Source: a virus. From it: a stretch of 30,507 bases of DNA. Each line of letters opens with the position of its first letter. Within the stretch, counting starts at the first letter, position 1. The DNA lies in IMG/VR virus record IMGVR_UViG_3300042868_003317, positions 1-30,507 of that record; one strand, 5' to 3'. The position numbers were made by a program, and so were the translations under genes. Shown here piece by piece: positions 4,296 to 30,507 of the stretch. A model generated the notes under the pieces. The model saw only the letters and a list, made by a program, of their open reading frames with translations. It was not told the origin of the DNA and made no database searches.

Positions 4296-4839
4296 CTATT
4301 ACTGTATTTAGTTTTACGTTATTAATCGCATTTTTAACTGCGTTAGCTACTGATCTAATCGGTATACCTGTATCCTCAGATACTTTCTTATAAGTACCTA
4401 ATAGTAAATATAATTTTAGTATTTCTTTCTCAAAGTATCGTAATTTATCTATAGAGTCCTCCATAGCCAGGAGCTTTAACTCCTTAATATCTCTCTCTGT
4501 CTGGCCCTGTACCTCGTATAATAGATTAGAGTATAGTATAGCGTCTGCGTTTTCTATGCTCTCGTCGTCTATAATAGATATACTTATAGCCTGGTTTTTA
4601 AAATTTTGATAGTAAAATTTACTATGCTTACTACGGTACTGGTTTAAAGCTACTCTAATTATAAAAAATTTAAGCTGTTTTTTAGATACCATAGACATTA
4701 TCTTATCTCTATCGTATTCGCATACTATTAAAAATACGTCCTGTTTTAATTCTACCGCCCAGTCCCCAGCTATATTATTAAAAAAAATATCTATATCCTT
4801 ATTATTATAATAATCGGTAATAATATCGTTAAAATTCAT
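4285..4839 (-). CDS. Sigma-70-like RNA polymerase factor
   Basis: 184 residues. The N-terminal part (about 25-80) has the look of sigma region 2: WAVELKQDVFLIVCEYD followed by QLKFFIIRVALNQYRSK. The C-terminus (about 135-175) resembles region 4: YFEKEILKLYLLLGTYKKVSE then GIPIRSVANAVKNAINNVK, a helix-turn-helix. Similar sigma-like proteins are common in Bacteroidota phages. It may redirect host RNA polymerase, perhaps for late transcription, though the promoters I can read resemble host-type ones. It overlaps the nuclease gene upstream and the membrane protein gene downstream by 11 bases each. Confidence 0.75.
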   Translation of the reverse strand: MNFNDIITDYYNNKDIDIFFNNIAGDWAVELKQDVFLIVCEYDRDKIMSMVSKKQLKFFIIRVALNQYRSKHSKFYYQNFKNQAISISIIDDESIENADAILYSNLLYEVQGQTERDIKELKLLAMEDSIDKLRYFEKEILKLYLLLGTYKKVSEDTGIPIRSVANAVKNAINNVKLNTVIDDN

Positions 4840-5221
4840 TATTTACATATTTCTCTATAATATCTATAGCTTCCTGGGATCCTGTAGCAAAAGTAGCATA
4901 ATAGCCCTGGCTATTTAGGTAGCTAAGGTATAGACTTTGTTTTTCTAAATGTTCGTTACTTTTTAACATTCCGTTAAGCTTATACGGGCTACTGCCTTCT
5001 GCTTTTAATTCTATAGCTAATAAATGGTATTTAGAGTTATTATGAAATATTAATAAGTCTGGAGTCCCCTGTGAGGCCTGGCCCAGCTTCTTAGCTTTTT
5101 TAGCTAGGTATATAGGTAATCTGGCTCCAGATAAATAGTTAGCTATAAATCTGATCTTAGGATATTTTAATCTTAAATAATTAACTACTGCCAGCTGGGC
5201 TATATCCTCGGAGTTATTCAT
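4829..5221 (-). CDS. VRR-NUC family nuclease
   Basis: 130 residues. It shows the VRR-NUC/PD-(D/E)XK core: a conserved GTPDLLIF (Pro54, Asp55), then LLAIELK (Glu71, Lys73), and a following helix with Gln95. Phage members are structure-specific nucleases thought to resolve branched DNA. It fits either replication-intermediate processing or clearing of branches before packaging. It is in the same operon as the helicase and initiator (upstream) and terminase (downstream). The ATG overlaps the stop of the 70-aa gene. Confidence 0.85.
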   Translation of the reverse strand: MNNSEDIAQLAVVNYLRLKYPKIRFIANYLSGARLPIYLAKKAKKLGQASQGTPDLLIFHNNSKYHLLAIELKAEGSSPYKLNGMLKSNEHLEKQSLYLSYLNSQGYYATFATGSQEAIDIIEKYVNNEF

Positions 5222-5775: not shown

Positions 5776-6771
5776 TTAAAAAATAAAGTCTTTACCAAAA
5801 GTATTATTTAAAACGGATACCTCTAAATTACCTGGATCCTTACCTGTGCTGTCTTTAACCAGGTACTCTAGTCCAAAATAAATACCGTTATCCTGTTTTT
5901 CGTAGTATCTATTTTTTTTCCAGTCCCAGAATAGGGTACAGCTACCCATTTTAGAGCTGCCTTTAGGCTTAGCCTTGATTACGGATACTATAGTCTGGTT
6001 TTCCTCGTATGGCTGTCCGTTCTCGTCGTTTAATCCATTCGGAGGTCTCCATAAAGTTAAGAAGGTCATAGCCTTCCTAAAGAAGCTCTCCCCGCCTGCG
6101 GCTTCTCTAGCGTGCGGAGGCGGGTAAAATGTTATACCGTCTACTGTTTTTTTCTCCTGCTTTTGCGGATGCATAGATATAAATATATGCTTATTTTCTT
6201 TTTTAGCGTATCTGCGCAGTTTACCGATCTCGTCCTCTATGTATAAATCCTGTCTTCCGCCAAAGTCCCGCATATCGTGTTTAACCTCGTTATAAGGATC
6301 ATATACTATATTATCTATAAATATATTATCGCTGGCCTCTAATTGCTTTACCTGGTTTATAATATCAAAAAAGCTAAAGCTATTCTCTTCGCTATCTACT
6401 ATATAAAATTTATCAGATAAAAAGTTAATAGCGTTATATATTTCGGCCTGGCTGCAAGAGTCGTAATCGCTAGCAAAAAAATGCTTTCTGTTATACTTAG
6501 ATATAAGCTCCTTAGCTACGTCCTTATAGTCTCCAGTCTCTGGAGTAAAAATTACGTGCTTTTGCCCGTATTTTATAGATAGGTTTAAAAGTATCTCTAA
6601 AGTAAATTCAGTCTTACCGCTATGCGGAGATGCTAATATAAAAGTAGTGCTCCCAGGTTTACGGGTATAGTACTCGTCCAGTACTTTAAATCCGCAGTAA
6701 TCTCCCTTTAGTATTCCTGTTTTATGGAAATCTATAATCTCCTCCTCGCAGTCTATTAGTTTTCTTATCAT
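5776..6771 (-). CDS. DnaB/RecA-fold replicative helicase
   Basis: 331 residues with a RecA-type ATPase core. Walker A is ASPHSGKT (47-54), the catalytic glutamate is in FTPETGD (Glu78, equivalent to the H1a glutamate of DnaB-family helicases), and Walker B is IFIDNI (150-155). Then come an H3-like region ending IFISMHPQ and a C-terminal TLWRPP segment. There is no DnaB N-terminal primase-binding domain and no primase domain. It would unwind DNA at the phage origin and load the host polymerase. It follows the initiator gene at 6777-7475 by five bases, the usual initiator-helicase pairing. Confidence 0.85.
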   Translation of the reverse strand: MIRKLIDCEEEIIDFHKTGILKGDYCGFKVLDEYYTRKPGSTTFILASPHSGKTEFTLEILLNLSIKYGQKHVIFTPETGDYKDVAKELISKYNRKHFFASDYDSCSQAEIYNAINFLSDKFYIVDSEENSFSFFDIINQVKQLEASDNIFIDNIVYDPYNEVKHDMRDFGGRQDLYIEDEIGKLRRYAKKENKHIFISMHPQKQEKKTVDGITFYPPPHAREAAGGESFFRKAMTFLTLWRPPNGLNDENGQPYEENQTIVSVIKAKPKGSSKMGSCTLFWDWKKNRYYEKQDNGIYFGLEYLVKDSTGKDPGNLEVSVLNNTFGKDFIF

Positions 6772-6776
6772 TTTTT

Positions 6777-7475
6777 TTAGTTTGTTGGTAATCCAAAGTT
6801 AGTAAAATTATTTATATTTTTAATTTTATTCTCATCTTTAAACCAGACGCCCCTCATTTTTTGCTTCCAGTTTTTAACTTTATTACCGTTACCGTCGGAC
6901 CAGTTACCGCTCTCGTAGTATAAAAATGCTTTCCTACCGATCTCTCCAGAATATCCATTCTCTATAAAATAATCTACCACATCCTTAACCTCTGGTATAT
7001 ATATATTATTATTTCTTTTGTTTTCTTTTGTTGGATTTTGTTGAACACTTGTTAGCATTTGTTCAACACTTGTTAAATTTTGTTGAACACTTGTTGCAAC
7101 TGTCTGATTATTAGACCTATTTTCTGCGCTCTTTTTACCAGCTTCCGATCTCTTATTTTTTATATCTGCCATTTTACCGACATTTTTTAAAACTCTATCG
7201 CTCCAAAAGTCTACGCTATCGCTCTGTAGTAATTCTACCAGCAGGCAGCTATTAATAAAATCCTCTACCGTTTTCTCGTCTATCTTTAGCTGGTTACCTA
7301 TAGCAAAGTATATATAAAATTTATGAGGTAGTTTGTTATTTTCTGTCTGGTGTAGCATCTCTACGATCCGCCACCAGATACCGTAAGCTACACCTCCGTA
7401 CTGGCTTATAATAAACTGTATTTTAGGATCGCTTATCGCTTCGAAATCGTGAGGGAAATAATAGGTTTTTTTCAT
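6777..7475 (-). CDS. Replication initiator, Lin1244/DUF4373-type
   Basis: 232 residues. The N-terminus (1-100: YYFPHDFEAISDPKIQFII then GGVAYGIWWRIVEMLHQ) is the winged-helix Lin1244/Lin1753-type (DUF4373) domain of phage and mobile-element initiators. A low-complexity linker (120-155) carries three heptapeptide repeats, TSVQQNL/TSVEQML/TSVQQNP, encoded by 21-bp direct repeats. The C-terminus (about 160-215) resembles the DnaD/DnaB-like helicase-loader region, with VVDYFIENGY and NWKQKMRGVW. By analogy with lambda O, the linker DNA may be the origin, bound by this protein itself. It sits between the DnaA-like and helicase genes. Confidence 0.82.
   Translation of the reverse strand: MKKTYYFPHDFEAISDPKIQFIISQYGGVAYGIWWRIVEMLHQTENNKLPHKFYIYFAIGNQLKIDEKTVEDFINSCLLVELLQSDSVDFWSDRVLKNVGKMADIKNKRSEAGKKSAENRSNNQTVATSVQQNLTSVEQMLTSVQQNPTKENKRNNNIYIPEVKDVVDYFIENGYSGEIGRKAFLYYESGNWSDGNGNKVKNWKQKMRGVWFKDENKIKNINNFTNFGLPTN
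6996..7117. repeat. Iteron tract inside the initiator gene (candidate origin)
   Basis: Three direct repeats with 21-bp period start at 7036, 7057 and 7078. The plus-strand unit is TTTTGTTGAACACTTGTT; the middle one has A at the first base and C in place of the central G. Each holds the palindrome TGTTnAACA and a half-site TTGTT. The tract is flanked on one side by a C/T-rich and TA-rich run (6996-7030) and on the other by CAACTGTCTGATTAT. The whole stretch aligns with a noncoding copy at 19707-19810. I infer binding sites for the initiator and a possible replication origin. Confidence 0.65.
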
Positions 7476-7476
7476 A

Positions 7477-8049
7477 TTAATAGCTGCTAGTATTTACGTT
7501 ATTATTACCTGTACTGTAAGTATATAGACTCTTACCCTTTAGTCCAGCTGGTCCTAACTCATTCTCTAAAATCTTTAAATATCGTCTAATAGGGTTTTTA
7601 TGTTTTTTGAGTATATCAGAGTAGTAAGATATGCTAAAGTCTTTTTTATAGTTAGATCTAATAAAGTCTATATCTCCTACAGTTAAAACAGTTTTAATAA
7701 CTTTAATATGCTTAGGCTTTATAATCTCTTTACTATTACCAGCCATTACCTCCAGCATATAGTTATATCTATACTGCATACGCTTATTATTTCTTAGCTG
7801 TACCTGTATATTATCTATAAAATAAATAATAGAGCTGTGGCATAGTAGCCCGATCTCCTTAGCTACCTGCTTAAGGGTTAGTCCGTAATGGTTATAAAGT
7901 ACATACCCCACTAACTGCCTAGATAGTGTAACCTCTTTAATCCTGGACTTAGTAGTAGTTAATAGCTCGTATATCTCCTGCCAGTTTATACGTTCGCTTT
8001 CGTATAGCTGGCTCGCAGCTATAGATAATTTTTTAGTCTCTTCTGTCAT
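7477..8049 (-). CDS. DnaA domain IV-like DNA-binding protein
   Basis: 190 residues. Residues 40-82 match the DNA-binding domain IV of DnaA: SRQLVGYVLYNHYGLTLKQ, then AKEIGLLCHSSIIYFIDNI, in which CHSS takes the place of the DHST signature. There is no AAA+ ATPase domain. The C-terminal half (about 120-180) looks like a second helical DNA-binding region. It may bind DnaA-box-like sites, help the adjacent initiator, or interfere with host DnaA. Its ATG lies directly downstream of a terminator-like hairpin (8063-8088), so entry of transcription into the replication operon may be controlled there. Confidence 0.8.
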   Translation of the reverse strand: MTEETKKLSIAASQLYESERINWQEIYELLTTTKSRIKEVTLSRQLVGYVLYNHYGLTLKQVAKEIGLLCHSSIIYFIDNIQVQLRNNKRMQYRYNYMLEVMAGNSKEIIKPKHIKVIKTVLTVGDIDFIRSNYKKDFSISYYSDILKKHKNPIRRYLKILENELGPAGLKGKSLYTYSTGNNNVNTSSY

Positions 8050-8062
8050 TTTTTTTTGGTTT

Positions 8063-8088
8063 AAAAAAGGCGGTTTTTTAGGCCGCCT
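8063..8088 (-). terminator. Hairpin with T-tract before the replication operon
   Basis: Read leftward: AGGCGG, a loop of CCTAAAAAA, CCGCCT, then six T. It has a 6-bp GC-rich stem and a U-tract, so it should act as an intrinsic terminator or attenuator. It lies between the stop of the 63-aa gene (8095) and the ATG of the DnaA-like gene (8049). The same 19-base core GGCGGCCTAAAAAACCGCC recurs at 10057-10075. Confidence 0.75.
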
Positions 8089-8553: not shown

Positions 8554-9033
8554 TTATCTTAATGTTAATGATAGTCCCAGTCTACCGTATTTAACTGGAG
8601 GATTAATAGTTAATATCTCTCCGTCCTCTGTTACTATAGTGGTCTGCTTATTTAAAGAGGATAAAAATGCCTCTCTGTTTTTTATAGCTTCTTTAATATC
8701 TGCTAGAGCTGCCTGGAGACTATTATACTCTGGATCCATACATACGGTATAATCTGTCTTAGATCCTACGACCTTCTCTATAATATCTACGGATCTGGTC
8801 CTATAAATTTCTCCTTTAGTAAGTACTAGTCTATCCTCTGCTATAGGTCTGCTCATATCCTCCAGCTGCTTACCTAGCTCCTGCATTTTCTTAGCGGATA
8901 TTAGGACCTCTACTGGATCCTGCTCCCCGTCTAGAATGGTATTTTTAATAATATTAACCTCTGCAGCGATATAGGCTTTATCAAATACCCTACCGTCTAC
9001 CTCTCGCATCTGTACGAATAGCTCTCTACTCAT
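8554..9033 (-). CDS. Hypothetical protein of the Erf recombination module
   Basis: 159 residues, mostly helical in the middle (about 20-65 and 105-130) with a beta-rich C-terminus (TIVTEDGEILTINPPVKYG). It overlaps the erf gene by eight bases (ATG 9033 inside the end of erf) and is followed by the DUF736-like gene. The position resembles that of Gam-like or DUF1351-type helpers of phage annealases, but I see no specific Gam signature, so I give no function beyond membership of the recombination module. Confidence 0.7.
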   Translation of the reverse strand: MSRELFVQMREVDGRVFDKAYIAAEVNIIKNTILDGEQDPVEVLISAKKMQELGKQLEDMSRPIAEDRLVLTKGEIYRTRSVDIIEKVVGSKTDYTVCMDPEYNSLQAALADIKEAIKNREAFLSSLNKQTTIVTEDGEILTINPPVKYGRLGLSLTLR

Positions 9034-9661
9034 TTGTTAATCCTCCTTTCTTTAGATCCTTAGCGTTAATAAATTCTAGGTTAGTCTGGAAGGTCCTGTA
9101 TTTATCCCATACAGATTTTAAACCGTCTAAATTAGTACATAGGTTTATCTCGTAAATAGCCTGGTTTACTGTAGGTAGTCTAGGGATATTTTTATCTACC
9201 AGATCGTCTGAATGGATAGCGTCTGTATCGTCTATTTTACCAGTAGGTACCAGGAAGGCATACAGTAGCGCATACTTTAATGCGTAGGTAGTAGCTTTAC
9301 CAGCTCCTTTATCCTGTGAGTCTACCCCCTGGCCATATCCTGCCAGCTCTAGGGTTTCTCCGCTCTCGTGTAGTAATAGATACTTAGTAACTACCTGCGT
9401 AAATACGCTCTGCTTTTGTTTTACCGTAGTCTTACCGTTATAGCTAGACTCTTCGGACCACCTGGTTACCTCTGTCTTAGGATCTACACCTATAGGTAAT
9501 ATCGTAAGGCCATTTTTAGCCATAGACTCCCCTATAATCTTTTTAACCTCTGCGTCTGGTACCCCCTGGTAAGATCCTGGACCATTACCTACAGTCATAG
9601 ACTTTTCGATACCCTTTACCTCAGTCATTACTGAGATTATAGCTTTTGCTAAGTTTTCCAT
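9026..9661 (-). CDS. erf: ERF-family single-strand annealing protein
   Basis: 211 residues. The diagnostic ERF segment is clear: GYGQGVDSQDKGAGKATTYA followed by LKYALLYAFLVPTG and the acidic DDTDA (about 110-150). ERF proteins anneal complementary single strands and mediate recombination-dependent concatemer formation or genome circularisation, as P22 Erf does. Residues 160-211 form a helical tail. No paired 5'-3' exonuclease is evident nearby; the DEDD exonuclease at 12203-12964 is of the 3'-5' class. It is in one operon with the 57-aa gene upstream and the 159-aa and DUF736-like genes downstream. Confidence 0.92.
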   Translation of the reverse strand: MENLAKAIISVMTEVKGIEKSMTVGNGPGSYQGVPDAEVKKIIGESMAKNGLTILPIGVDPKTEVTRWSEESSYNGKTTVKQKQSVFTQVVTKYLLLHESGETLELAGYGQGVDSQDKGAGKATTYALKYALLYAFLVPTGKIDDTDAIHSDDLVDKNIPRLPTVNQAIYEINLCTNLDGLKSVWDKYRTFQTNLEFINAKDLKKGGLTNE

Positions 9662-9663
9662 AG

Positions 9664-9837
9664 TTAAATAGTTTTATATTCTGTATGATCAAAATACCAC
9701 TCTTCGCTCTCTCCAAACTCATTTATAAACTGGATTAACGAAAACGTAAAAAATCTCTTTACTATGGTACCGTCTTTACCGATAGTTACTGCGTCAACTC
9801 CTTGAGGATTAGCTAGTATTAATACTTGTTCTGTCAT
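9664..9837 (-). CDS. Hypothetical 57-aa protein
   Basis: 57 residues, starting MTEQVLILANPQGVDAVTIG and ending WYFDHTEYKTI. It is two bases upstream of erf and reads in the same direction, with an A/T-rich start region like its neighbours. It is beta-rich at the N-terminus and has no membrane segment. Not recognised. The coding quality (no rare breaks, good start context, fits the gap exactly) supports a real gene. Confidence 0.65.
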   Translation of the reverse strand: MTEQVLILANPQGVDAVTIGKDGTIVKRFFTFSLIQFINEFGESEEWYFDHTEYKTI

Positions 9838-9853
9838 TGGTTTTAAATTAGAT

Positions 9854-9877
9854 TAAATATACTATTATTTTTTAAAT
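9854..9877 (-). promoter_or_regulatory. Possible weak promoter for the recombination genes
   Basis: On the minus strand TATATTTA (9861-9854) is one base off the -7 box TAnnTTTG and lies 17 bases before the 57-aa gene. No good TTTG is present at -33. Bases 9855-9877 repeat the segment at 30327-30350, which contains a strong promoter, with one T deleted. I therefore call it a diverged copy of that promoter. Confidence 0.35.
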
Positions 9878-10042
9878 AAAAAAAATTGTTTTAACACTAT
9901 CCCAGTAGTTTTTTAGGATATGGGTAATATACATTTTTTCGCTTACGTTAGATCTAAATATTATCTGTTCTTCGTAAAGCTTGCGATATTTTAGCCTGGC
10001 TAATTCTATCGGAGTTAATGAGTTATCTTTTATCATTTTCAT
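9872..10042 (-). CDS. Hypothetical 56-aa protein
   Basis: 56 residues from ATG 10042-10040 (MKMIKDNSLTPIELARLKYR...) to a TAA at 9872-9874. The N-terminal 30 residues look helical and basic, and the C-terminus is VKTIFFI. A second Met at position 3 is an alternative start. It lies 13 bases after a hairpin (10056-10076). No recognisable family. Confidence 0.6.
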   Translation of the reverse strand: MKMIKDNSLTPIELARLKYRKLYEEQIIFRSNVSEKMYITHILKNYWDSVKTIFFI

Positions 10043-10055
10043 AGGTTTAAAATAA

Positions 10056-10076
10056 TGGCGGTTTTTTAGGCCGCCA
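10056..10076 (-). terminator. Hairpin, second copy of the 8063 element
   Basis: Read leftward: TGGCGG, loop CCTAAAAAA, CCGCCA. The core is identical to the hairpin at 8069-8087, but the outermost pair is T-A here and A-T there, so pairing is kept while the bases changed. The following sequence is ATTATTTT rather than a clean T-run, so termination would be weak. It may be a processing or attenuating structure between the 77-aa and 56-aa genes. Confidence 0.55.
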
Positions 10077-10083
10077 GGTTTTA

Positions 10084-10317
10084 CTAGTTATCGTGATTGT
10101 AACCTTTTGCTTCTTGTATAATTGTACCGTTTGGATATGCTGTATACCAGTCCGACCTCATATTACCACTATCGTAATAATAGTATACATAAAAGTATAT
10201 TTCTCTTCCGTACTCTTTTGCATATTGAATAGATGCCTTTTTTAAATCTCTTAGATTATAATAAATATCTTCACCGCCACTTGGTAAAGATACTGCCTGT
10301 ACTTTTTCGTATCCCAT
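10084..10317 (-). CDS. Hypothetical 77-aa protein with its own promoter
   Basis: 77 residues, MGYEKVQAVSLPSGGEDIYYN..., rich in Tyr (a YFYVYYYYDSG run around 40-50) and without a signal or membrane helix. It looks like a small beta-rich domain with an internal helix (LKKASIQYAKEYGREI). It is the first gene after the lysis-cassette terminator and has a promoter 40 bases upstream, with a 140-base leader region lacking other genes. This suggests an independently expressed, perhaps early, gene. Function unknown. Confidence 0.7.
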   Translation of the reverse strand: MGYEKVQAVSLPSGGEDIYYNLRDLKKASIQYAKEYGREIYFYVYYYYDSGNMRSDWYTAYPNGTIIQEAKGYNHDN

Positions 10318-10355
10318 TTTGTTTAATTTTTAGATTTTTTGTTTTGTTTGTTGAT

Positions 10356-19314: not shown

Positions 19315-19671
19315 TTAATTATATACTATAAAATCCTCGTCCTGGCCTGTGTATTCTGTGTAATCTAACGGATCCCCCGTAAGCTTCATTTTACCCACTT
19401 GTAAAAATCTCTTTAAATATGGATCTGCTTTATACTCATATATTTTATAAGTCCAGAAGCCATTTTTTTTATCTGTAAAGTTATCGTCTACGTCTAATAA
19501 AAACTCATTATATCTATATTTATAATCGCTAATATCCTCTAGCTGTAAGCTAATTAGCTCGTTAGTCATATCGTTAATAAATTCAAAAATATAAACACTA
19601 TCAGCTACGGTAATAGGATCGTCTAAATGGACCACTATTTTATCTATATTACCTCTTTGTAAAAGTATCAT
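19315..19671 (-). CDS. Fibre-associated structural protein, 118 aa
   Basis: 118 residues beginning MILLQRGNIDKIVVHLDDPI, with YIFEFINDMTNELISLQLED, RYNEFLL and a late GFWTYKIYEY and VGKMKL. This strand pattern is that of a small beta-sandwich protein placed directly before the tail fibre in many Bacteroidota phages, probably a fibre adaptor or distal tail component. It is the first gene of the second structural block and its start is preceded by the A/T leader TTATATTTATTAGTATG, close to that of three other genes. It starts at the control region 19672-19902. Confidence 0.65.
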   Translation of the reverse strand: MILLQRGNIDKIVVHLDDPITVADSVYIFEFINDMTNELISLQLEDISDYKYRYNEFLLDVDDNFTDKKNGFWTYKIYEYKADPYLKRFLQVGKMKLTGDPLDYTEYTGQDEDFIVYN

Positions 19672-19706: not shown

Positions 19707-19810
19707 TATATATATAAGTATTTCTTTTCTTTTCTTTTATTTTGTTAGCATTTGTTCAACAAAAAAATATTTTGTTCAACACTTGTTACAACTAACTGAT
19801 AATCAGGATA
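19707..19810. repeat. Noncoding copy of the initiator-gene iteron tract
   Basis: It aligns along its length with 6996-7117. It shares an exact 20-mer with that tract (19742-19761 and 7049-7068; minus strand TGTTGAACAAATGCTAACAA), one full 18-base unit at 19770-19787, the flank ACTTGTTACAACTAACTGATAAT, and the preceding TTTCTTTT and TATATATA tracts. One unit is missing and one is truncated by an A7 run. I infer an initiator-binding site acting as second origin, regulatory operator or handcuffing site. Confidence 0.65.
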
Positions 19811-19902: not shown

Positions 19903-20013
19903 ATGTTAGAAGCCTATTTATTTTGCGCTGCTCCGATAGTAGCTTTAGTATTTGTAGCTTATTTAGCTCAGAAATTTAATAACCTTTTTAATACAGATAA
20001 AAATGAGAAATAA
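19903..20013 (+). CDS. Small 36-aa single-pass membrane protein
   Basis: 36 residues: MLEAYLFCAAPIVALVFVAY then LAQKFNNLFNTDKNEK. Residues 4-22 form one hydrophobic helix and the C-terminus is charged. It overlaps the next gene by 11 bases, and both are driven by the promoter at 19829-19860. These are the only plus-strand genes of the genome. The size and topology resemble membrane toxins, inhibitors or superinfection-exclusion proteins, but nothing identifies it. Confidence 0.6.
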   Translation: MLEAYLFCAAPIVALVFVAYLAQKFNNLFNTDKNEK

Positions 20014-20260
20014 CGGTAATAACCCAGAGATTTTAAGAGCGGCCCTGGTATCTGTACTAGGATCCCTATCCGCTTACTACGAGGATCGTATAGACGTGCC
20101 ATACGAAAGGACCAAAATTATAGCTAGTAAGATTAACGAGAAATTTAATCTTAACATAGATATAGACTCTATCTTTATGGATATTCAGGATCCTGTAGAT
20201 CAGGGCTGCGGGCACGACCAGGACGAAAATTACTACGATAGTAATTACGATAGGTTATAA
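20003..20260 (+). CDS. Hypothetical acidic 85-aa protein
   Basis: 85 residues. The helical N-terminal part (EILRAALVSVLGSLSAYYED and ERTKIIASKINEKFNLNID) is followed by an acidic, Tyr/Asp-rich tail (DQGCGHDQDENYYDSNYDRL). There is no membrane segment. It starts inside the membrane-peptide gene and ends eight bases before a bidirectional terminator. Its codon use (frequent ATA) is like the rest of the phage, which argues against recent transfer. The acidic tail could mimic DNA or bind a basic partner. Function unknown. Confidence 0.75.
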   Translation: MRNNGNNPEILRAALVSVLGSLSAYYEDRIDVPYERTKIIASKINEKFNLNIDIDSIFMDIQDPVDQGCGHDQDENYYDSNYDRL

Positions 20261-23114: not shown

Positions 23115-25187
23115 TTAAATAGTAGCTGCTGCTTTTATCTTAGCGATCCGATCCTGGCTATCTGTAATATCGCTTTCTACTACGAAAGCCTTAACCGTGG
23201 CCTGGTTTTGTAGGTTTACACCGTTACCTCCTGGAGTTAGGGCTGTCTGCTGTATTTGTACAGACTGAGCTATAGGAGCCTGCATAACAGCAGCACCAGC
23301 GCCTCCGCTTATAGGGTTAGCTCCAGATGCTCCGCCACCGCCTCCGCCTCCTCCTGGTACTTTAACAGAGGTAATCTGTTTAACAGTTTTAATACCGTTA
23401 GCTATAATAGCGGCAGCACTTGCAAATCTTGCGATAGTAGAGAAAGGCTGCGGTAATGTAGATTTTTCCTTTAAGGCTTCCGTAGCACCCTGGTAGGTAT
23501 TTATTAAAGCTGTAGCAATACCCAGCGCTTTACCTGCTGCGGTCTGCTGGCCCAATACAGTACCTAGATCTCCGAGTAGTTTTAAGGTATCTCCTACCTG
23601 TTTCTTTTTGTGCTCTGTTTCTGCTGTTTCTATAGCCTGCCTAGCCTTAGAGTTTTCGTCTAATAATTTAGTCCTCGCCTCTTCAGTTAATTTAGTATTA
23701 TTAACTATAGCTTCTCTCTGTCTGTCTAGTATAGCCAGGTCATTAGCAAAATCTCCCTCCTTCTTAGCTATAGCCTCAGCATCTTTAGCTAATTGTGCCT
23801 CAAAGTCTTTAGCATCCTGTGCATCTTGCAGCTCCTTACTCTTTCTAATATACTCTTCGTCTATTGCCTCTATGCTAGTATTAAACTCCTTAGCTTTTGC
23901 AAGTTTTTCGAGGTAATCCGCTGTTAGTATTTCGTTATCTCTTTCGAATTGTGATAACTTTGCTAATCTATTCTCTTCTGCTGTTTTAGCATTTAGATCA
24001 TTTAGCTCCTGCTGGCCCTTCTCAAAGGCTTCCTTTTTATCTTTAGCGTCTTTAGCTGCCTGGTCCTCTTCTGGAGTAGTAGTTTTTTTATCCGCTCCAG
24101 CTGTACCGCCTTTAGCACTTCCTGCTCCAGTTTCTTTAGGTTTATCTAATTCCTGTATTTGTAACTGAAATCCAGCCCGATCGTTTTTTAATTTAGCTAA
24201 AGCTATTCTTTGCTGCTTTAATGCCTCTGCCCCTTCGTCCGCTACCTGTCCAGGATCAAATACTAAATTAGCTATTCCTCCAAAAAGTTTCTCTTCAAGT
24301 CCAAAATCTTTACCTAAAGCCGTACCGACCATATCTACAGTCTTCAATAATAAAGAAAGCGGAGCAGCTATAAATCGTAAAATACCAGTTAGTATTTCTT
24401 TATTTCTTTTAGCTGCCTGTACTGCTGCGGCATTTGTTATTATTTGATTTTGTATCTGTATCTCAGAAGCTCTAATAACCTCGTCGGTCTGCTTCATTTT
24501 AATCTTAAGTATATCCCTCTCGGATTTACCCTGCAGTTTTAAGATGTTATCCTGCGAGCTTACGGTATTTAGTTTATCCTTCTCTGTCTCTAATCCTTTA
24601 GCGCTATCCTTGTTTAATTTCTTTTGCTCTTCGCTTACACCGCTAACCGCTCCCTTAATATCGTCCCAGTATGCGTATATAGTACCCAGGGCTATTACTA
24701 ATAAACCTATACCAGTAGCTCCTATAGCGCCTTTAATTGCTTTAAATGCTTGAACAGCTACGTTACCCATATTTTTAAATGCGTCCTTGCTTTCTAGGAT
24801 AGCATTTAGTCCCTCAGATAAAGCTAGAGCGCTCTGTACTTTTAATAGCTGTTTTTCTAGATCCTTACTTTCTGTACCGAATAAACCTATAGCACCCTGG
24901 AGTCCAGCAAATCCGCCAGCTACTCCCTGTAAAGACTGACTAAAGGCTTGAAATTTACGATCTGGATTTAATGAGTCTATACGGGCCTTTAAATCTCCTA
25001 TCTCATCCTTTAAATTAGCTACCCTCTGAGCTGCTCCTAAAGCCTCTGGAGAGAAATCTCCAAATTTTCTAGCTAGAGCTACAGCGTCCTGCGTGGCCTG
25101 TCTTAATTCGGTCCTAATACTGCCTATGGACTTCTCGGTCTGGCTGGTATCTGTGGTTATCTGTAATGCTAATTTATCTACGGTCAT
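23115..25187 (-). CDS. Tail tape measure protein
   Basis: 690 residues, the ruler that sets tail length and occupies the tail lumen. N-terminal helices and coiled coil (15-75), a Gly/Ala hydrophobic transmembrane stretch (about 153-173, GAIGATGIGLLVIALGTIYA), a long charged coiled coil (about 390-560, many Lys/Glu/Ala), and a Gly-rich run (GGGGGGGG near 630) before the tail end. At about 1.5 angstrom per residue the tail would be about 100 nm. Its position downstream of the two baseplate-like genes and upstream of the head genes is unusual. Confidence 0.85.
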   Translation of the reverse strand: MTVDKLALQITTDTSQTEKSIGSIRTELRQATQDAVALARKFGDFSPEALGAAQRVANLKDEIGDLKARIDSLNPDRKFQAFSQSLQGVAGGFAGLQGAIGLFGTESKDLEKQLLKVQSALALSEGLNAILESKDAFKNMGNVAVQAFKAIKGAIGATGIGLLVIALGTIYAYWDDIKGAVSGVSEEQKKLNKDSAKGLETEKDKLNTVSSQDNILKLQGKSERDILKIKMKQTDEVIRASEIQIQNQIITNAAAVQAAKRNKEILTGILRFIAAPLSLLLKTVDMVGTALGKDFGLEEKLFGGIANLVFDPGQVADEGAEALKQQRIALAKLKNDRAGFQLQIQELDKPKETGAGSAKGGTAGADKKTTTPEEDQAAKDAKDKKEAFEKGQQELNDLNAKTAEENRLAKLSQFERDNEILTADYLEKLAKAKEFNTSIEAIDEEYIRKSKELQDAQDAKDFEAQLAKDAEAIAKKEGDFANDLAILDRQREAIVNNTKLTEEARTKLLDENSKARQAIETAETEHKKKQVGDTLKLLGDLGTVLGQQTAAGKALGIATALINTYQGATEALKEKSTLPQPFSTIARFASAAAIIANGIKTVKQITSVKVPGGGGGGGGASGANPISGGAGAAVMQAPIAQSVQIQQTALTPGGNGVNLQNQATVKAFVVESDITDSQDRIAKIKAAATI

Positions 25188-30325: not shown

Positions 30326-30357
30326 CAAATATACTATTTATTTTTTAAATTCCAAAA
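30326..30357 (-). promoter_or_regulatory. Strong Bacteroidota-type promoter for the structural operon
   Basis: On the minus strand TTTTG (30357-30353), 19 bases, TATATTTG (30333-30326) is an essentially perfect match to TTTG-N19-TAnnTTTG. It overlaps the end of the 79-aa gene. Initiation near 30320 would give a leader of about 30 bases before the hairpin at 30271-30292. Confidence 0.7.
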
Positions 30358-30507
30358 TCCAGGCCAGGTCCTCATTTGTCATAAATCCGCTGGAGTCGTT
30401 ATCCTTCCTAAATTTTTTCCAGTCCCCAGATACCGTAATATTACCTACTGTATCTATATAGTCCTTTATATATTGCTTAAATGTTTCTGGATCTTTTTTA
30501 GCTATCT
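30338..30507 (-). CDS. 79-aa hypothetical protein, 3' part across the junction
   Basis: The C-terminal part of the gene whose start lies at 228 in the left copy. The frame continues through 30350 into codons TTT AAA AAA and a TAA at 30338-30340, giving 79 residues in all. The 5' end lies beyond the window end because the sequence is cut at 30507. The residues present in both copies are identical despite the base difference at 30476. See the entry at 1-228 for properties. The -33 box of the tail-operon promoter lies inside its last codons. Confidence 0.8.
   Translation of the reverse strand, partial: IAKKDPETFKQYIKDYIDTVGNITVSGDWKKFRKDNDSSGFMTNEDLAWILEFKK
30350..30507. repeat. Terminal overlap, right copy
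   Basis: Repeats 1-158 with one substitution (C at 30476 against T at 127). Removing one copy gives a 30349-bp circular unit. Confidence 0.95.

Follow-up and report, generated by a model that had tools for sequence, protein, structure and literature searches.

The DNA analysed here, referred to below as the window, is a stretch of 30,507 nucleotides from a virus record (Table 1). A direct repeat of 158 bp is present at its two ends (1-158 and 30350-30507, one mismatch), and on this basis the window looks like a phage genome of about 30.35 kb that is circularly permuted and close to complete, though the record is classed as linear. Similar end repeats occur in the relatives G011, G016, G020, G021 and G025. 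Nearly all genes of the window are carried by the minus strand, which makes GC skew uninformative, and no origin signal was seen in it. The host is likely a member of the Bacteroidota, because the named phages closest by initiator infect Flavobacterium; a scan of a genome collection for the host returned distant relatives only. A 19-bp sequence, GGCGGTTTTTTAGGCCGCC, occurs in two noncoding gaps (8069-8087 and 10057-10075) and forms a terminator-like inverted repeat.

Table 1. Coordinates of the replication genes and of the two repeat tracts in the window
Feature	Position	Strand	Remarks
Source record IMGVR_UViG_3300042868_003317	1-30,507		IMG/VR virus record
Resolvase/endonuclease-like protein	4829..5221	-	phrog_824, phrog_5702 'Holliday junction resolvase'
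DnaB-like helicase, directly downstream of initiator	5776..6771	-	phrog_5482, phrog_239; DnaB_C below cut-off
Replication initiator, 232 aa	6777..7475	-	N domain of Lin1244_N (DUF4373) type, then a disordered linker and a conserved C domain (KNWKQKM)
Tract A, candidate unwinding element: purine-rich A+T stretch with TATATATA at its end	6999..7035	-	Follows the iterons in relatives too
Tract A, iterons, three 21-bp units on TGTTSAACA	7036..7098	-	Inside initiator gene; frozen synonymous codons
Weak DnaA domain IV-like helix-turn-helix protein, directly upstream of initiator	7477..8049	-	PF08299
Erf-like single-strand annealing protein (recombination-dependent replication)	9026..9661	-	phrog_155, PF04404
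Tract B, candidate unwinding element: purine-rich stretch plus TATATATA	19707..19741	-	
Tract B, iterons, two TGTTSAACA units split by an A/T run	19742..19792	-	Noncoding
Tract B, flanking TGATTATCAGTTAGTTG element, similar to TAATCAGACAGTTG beside tract A	19793..19810	-	Alignment

The initiator scores 44.9 bits against the Lin1244_N family, PF14297 (cut-off 25, E 2e-11), which places it in that family, and it matches phrog_2562, 'replication initiation protein' (E 2e-18). In a structure model the N and C domains are confident, and residues 131-156 between them have pLDDT values of 36-51, as expected of a disordered linker. The N domain is modelled as a winged helix, which matches many structures about equally well (Z about 7), those of plasmid Rep and DnaD initiators included; judged from the model, this fold match is not specific. 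A sequence search of the initiator against solved structures gave no match. The protein encoded directly upstream scores 24.4 bits against PF08299, under the cut-off of 31.5, and Flavobacterium phage tooticki likewise has a protein annotated as DnaA helix-turn-helix.

The first-pass annotation had described three 21-bp repeats in the part of the gene that encodes the linker, and these are indeed present as three direct copies at 21-bp spacing (26-nt copies start at 7028, 7049 and 7070). It had also pointed to a copy of the whole tract about 19.7 kb into the window, sharing with the first an exact 20-mer and an 18-base unit. Both identities were verified by exact match (7049-7068 = 19742-19761 and 7058-7075 = 19771-19788). 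When the linker DNA is aligned locally to the rest of the genome, there is one strong match, 19707-19806, with a score of 79, compared to scores of at most 37 for 200 dinucleotide-shuffled linkers. For the remaining genes of the window no distant DNA copy was seen, the next best score being 40. The sequence TGTTNAACA occurs at 7039, 7060, 7081, 19753 and 19773, with one further copy at 23377; in 300 shuffles its mean count is 0.27 and its maximum 3. The shared module extends beyond the iterons alone, and consists of 21-bp iterons, a purine-rich A+T tract and TATATATA. The two copies, here called tracts A and B, are 12.6 kb apart on the shorter arc.

Tract A is conserved at synonymous positions. 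Among 17 initiator genes of the class to which the window belongs (class 1, see below), synonymous identity over amino acids 124-161 is 0.898, compared with an expectation of 0.681 based on those residues in the rest of the initiator gene, and the best 38-column window elsewhere in the gene reaches 0.708. Within this segment, the codons for serine, valine and glutamate do not differ between any two of the genes, and the part that encodes the purine stretch (amino acids 150-161) has a synonymous identity of 0.89. These frozen codons indicate that tract A is constrained at the DNA level. The protein presumably tolerates the tract because it falls on the disordered linker between the two confident domains of the model. 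The tract A of the window is also found in contig L007.

Tract B lies between an ORF on the minus strand (19315-19671) and ORFs on the plus strand (19903-20013 and 20003-20260), and is noncoding and at the only place where genes of the window diverge, as the first-pass annotation had stated. The gap that holds it is situated among the capsid and tail genes. In class 1, mean pairwise identity is 0.72-0.90 over the iterons and purine tract and 0.5 or less in the noncoding flank upstream; the purine part has an identity of 0.90 across relatives. The tract B of the window is also found in contig L206. In several relatives the element corresponding to 19793..19810 is near an IHF-type consensus. Of the 18 tract B sequences listed, 7 have an exact IHF consensus beside the iterons; there is no exact match in the tract B of the window, nor in class 2. 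Four class-2 contigs (L213 and L215-L217) have a perfect palindrome, TTTCACTAAACTTTAGTGAAA, upstream of tract B, and part of this palindrome, CTAAACTTTAGTGAAA, is also found in the initiator genes of G010 and G016.

Relatives were gathered via the initiator and the capsid protein, longer contigs were scanned whole, and each initiator gene was compared to its own contig in search of a second copy. The background consisted of second hits within the same contig (at most 40) and of shuffles; scores against other contigs were not used, since that null mixed in related contigs. A second copy is present in all 10 genomes of this capsid family that have this initiator and in which the region is known to be sequenced, with scores of 71-106. 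One contig, G048, was excluded because its high score arises from internal repeats in its open frame. The two tracts have the same orientation in 10 of 10 genomes, and are separated by 11-14 kb along one arc and by about 18-20 kb along the other, distances that assume closure of the contig where an end repeat is absent. Five partial contigs with this initiator type (G002, G010, G036, G044 and G059) have no second copy; the G002 and G010 contigs stop shortly after the capsid gene and do not reach the position of tract B. Phages related by a capsid protein of about 65% identity do not have the noncoding gap, and three of the longer contigs among them do not have this initiator.

In most other phages that have a Lin1244-type initiator no second copy was seen, so the initiator family does not require the pair. 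None scores above background in the cultured Flavobacterium phages lillamy, tooticki, morran and elemoC, or in Vibrio phage 1.259.O. A scan of viral contigs for the pattern TGTTSAACACTTGTT gave mostly single occurrences among the matches listed, and was left out of the analysis. In Porphyromonas phage005a (BK068088, L339), a 53-bp stretch of a DUF4373-type initiator gene recurs near capsid genes (30424-30476 and 9614-10324), with the inverted repeat GGCAAAACGCACAGCGTTTGTGCC; this is possibly another two-site phage. G056 and G058 (L441-L445) have ACTAGT-type repeats in their initiator linkers, and isolated near-copies, ATACACTAGTAATAC, at various places in the rest of these contigs.

The 10 genomes carry two types of iteron. 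In class 1 (the window, G020, G021, G023 and G025), TGTTSAACA iterons are found at both sites, and in class 2 (G006, G011, G013, G016 and G045) both sites have repeats of the type TGTAACGC...GTAACRC. A and B align with scores of 59-142 when both come from the same class and with no more than 37 when they come from different classes, so the co-variation of both tracts in related phages, to which the first-pass annotation had looked as a check, is observed. Compared to the window, the initiators of class 1 are 61-63% identical and those of class 2 are 32-33% identical, whereas the helicase and DnaA-like neighbours are 68-70% and 45-49% identical, respectively, in both classes alike. By these comparisons, the iteron class tracks the initiator and not its helicase or DnaA-like neighbours. 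When A and B tracts are paired at random, 168 of 100000 trials attain the observed sum, a count that overstates the evidence because class 1 is one clade in the capsid tree and a single class switch suffices. Repeated switching had been considered on the basis of capsid identities (75-88% between the window and both classes), and was abandoned since the capsid tree shows one switch. The comparisons indicate that in a sister lineage the initiator was replaced and both tracts have the new iteron, as one joint change.

Within a class, the A and B tracts of one genome are no closer to each other than are swapped pairs, a pattern that favours recognition in common over copying from one tract to the other. 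Gene conversion that keeps the two tracts alike in each genome is unsupported for the same reason. The more distant G034 has a third iteron type, with AGCCCCCCTAATAGCC-type repeats at two sites; its second site is in a noncoding gap near head genes, and its repeats are inverted relative to the purine tract. Natural chimaeras suggest which part of the initiator matters for the iterons. L048 and L481 have a common C domain and differ in N domain and iterons, and in G046/G047 a foreign C domain is joined to an N domain of class 2, and the repeats are class-2-like. Judging from these chimaeras, iterons go with the N domain of the initiator and not with the C domain. Lin1244_N initiators thus swap N and C domains (L048 versus L481; G046/G047 versus G006), and the junction of the swap is in or near the iteron-bearing linker.

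Bacillus phage SPP1 has the same layout. Its gp38 (G38P) binds oriL, within gene 38, and oriR, about 12-13 kb away in an intergenic segment that interrupts late head genes, and both origins contain direct repeats and an A+T-rich element (PMC6316719, PMC3485210). According to one proposal, forks are stalled by gp38 at oriR, and concatemer synthesis is thereby set off with the help of a resolvase and an annealing protein of the phage (PMC6316719, PMC3485210). In the window, tract A similarly combines in-gene repeats with an A+T element, tract B is a noncoding second site in the late region at 12.6 kb, and genes for an annealing protein and a resolvase are present too. The phages differ in host phylum, and the likeness described here is one of layout at the sequence level. 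Also, in contrast to SPP1, many related phages with the pair are available here, together with one joint change of iteron type.

Other known origins share parts of this organization. The lambda origin consists of imperfect inverted-repeat iterons in the middle of the O gene, followed by an A+T-rich region (PMC7466680), and tract A likewise has its iterons mid-gene and an adjoining A+T-rich tract. However, lambda has one site only, with O scoring 31 against the rest of the lambda genome in the same scan. As to a possible kinship with O, the initiator of the window has a modelled winged-helix N domain, with no specific match among solved structures. In phage P1, according to the accessible part of one report (PMC9948254), the lytic origin oriL is also within an initiator gene, repL, and synonymous changes in its A/T-rich part inhibit replication; the initiator is a different one, and that part of the report describes no second noncoding site. 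Iteron plasmids with winged-helix Rep proteins likewise have iterons and an A+T-rich element, and Rep is among the tied fold matches of the N domain. Their origin is usually outside the rep gene, unlike tract A of the window.

We consider it probable that one initiator recognizes two origin-like sites in these phages, in the manner of SPP1 oriL and oriR, and the analysis thus supports the two-site system suggested in the first-pass annotation. The initiator would bind both A and B, most likely via its N-terminal winged-helix domain, and each site would present iterons followed, on the same strand, by an easily melted purine/A+T tract. Tract A is most likely the main theta origin, at which the neighbouring DnaB-like helicase is likely loaded. 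Tract B could be a second origin or an initiator-bound fork barrier, and may aid a switch to recombination-dependent concatemer synthesis with the Erf-like and resolvase-like proteins, as was proposed for oriR. A more specific version, which we regard as tentative and somewhat doubtful, is that recognition changed as a unit on one branch, involving the N domain and both the in-gene and the distant iterons, and that B acts as a fork barrier programmed to set the moment at which circle replication gives way to concatemer replication.

A different role for tract B is conceivable on account of its position. If B is an operator or promoter element, the initiator would switch the late block that begins at 19671, or the plus-strand ORFs, and A would be the only origin. 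Such an arrangement would couple late transcription to replication, and it fits the divergence of genes at B, the distance of about 40 bp to the start codon at 19671 and the conservation of the leader in between (0.86-0.90). However, an operator would need iterons only, and B shares with A, itself a mid-gene site, the purine tract and TATATATA in identical order. We therefore find this explanation unlikely.

The initiator might also limit its own activity through the two sites. In iteron plasmids, initiation is limited by handcuffing or titration, and by analogy initiator at A and B could be bridged or soaked up, in which case B would never fire. The presence of two iteron arrays for one initiator, at a roughly conserved distance, is compatible with this idea, but a purine tract at B would be unneeded, and a lytic-type genome presumably has less need for copy control. 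Handcuffing or titration is an even less likely role than that of an operator. It is very improbable that the two sites have the reverse ranking, with B as main origin and A as a secondary site that serves, for example, in autoregulation of the replication genes. No 26-nt stretch of the minus strand is richer in purines than one in B (19707..19741), but in the window A has three complete iterons and B has two, and many phages in which no second site was seen carry A in their initiator genes.

Finally, the first-pass annotation took the A7 run that replaces half a unit of B as decay, and offered a relic of a duplicated stretch of the initiator gene as an alternative; the copy is imperfect, but a similar A/T-run form is kept in L143, L209, L224 and L225, B is conserved beside a diverged upstream flank and differs in step with the initiator class, and homology between A and B stops at the module edges in most pairs, so that decay is the wrong reading of the run and a relic is the least credible explanation of all.

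Under the two-site interpretation that we favour, the phages described here share their layout with SPP1. In the phage-origin literature cited, SPP1 alone is described as having an additional origin-like site in its late region, and the role of that site is a proposal. The Lin1244-type initiators are not known to be related to SPP1 gp38. A family of related phages keeps an SPP1-like layout here and includes a natural replacement of the initiator with a matching change at both sites. Exchange of initiators and sites between the two classes would make the need for the second site directly testable, and the iteron classes provide data on DNA-binding specificity for a widespread and little-studied family of initiators.
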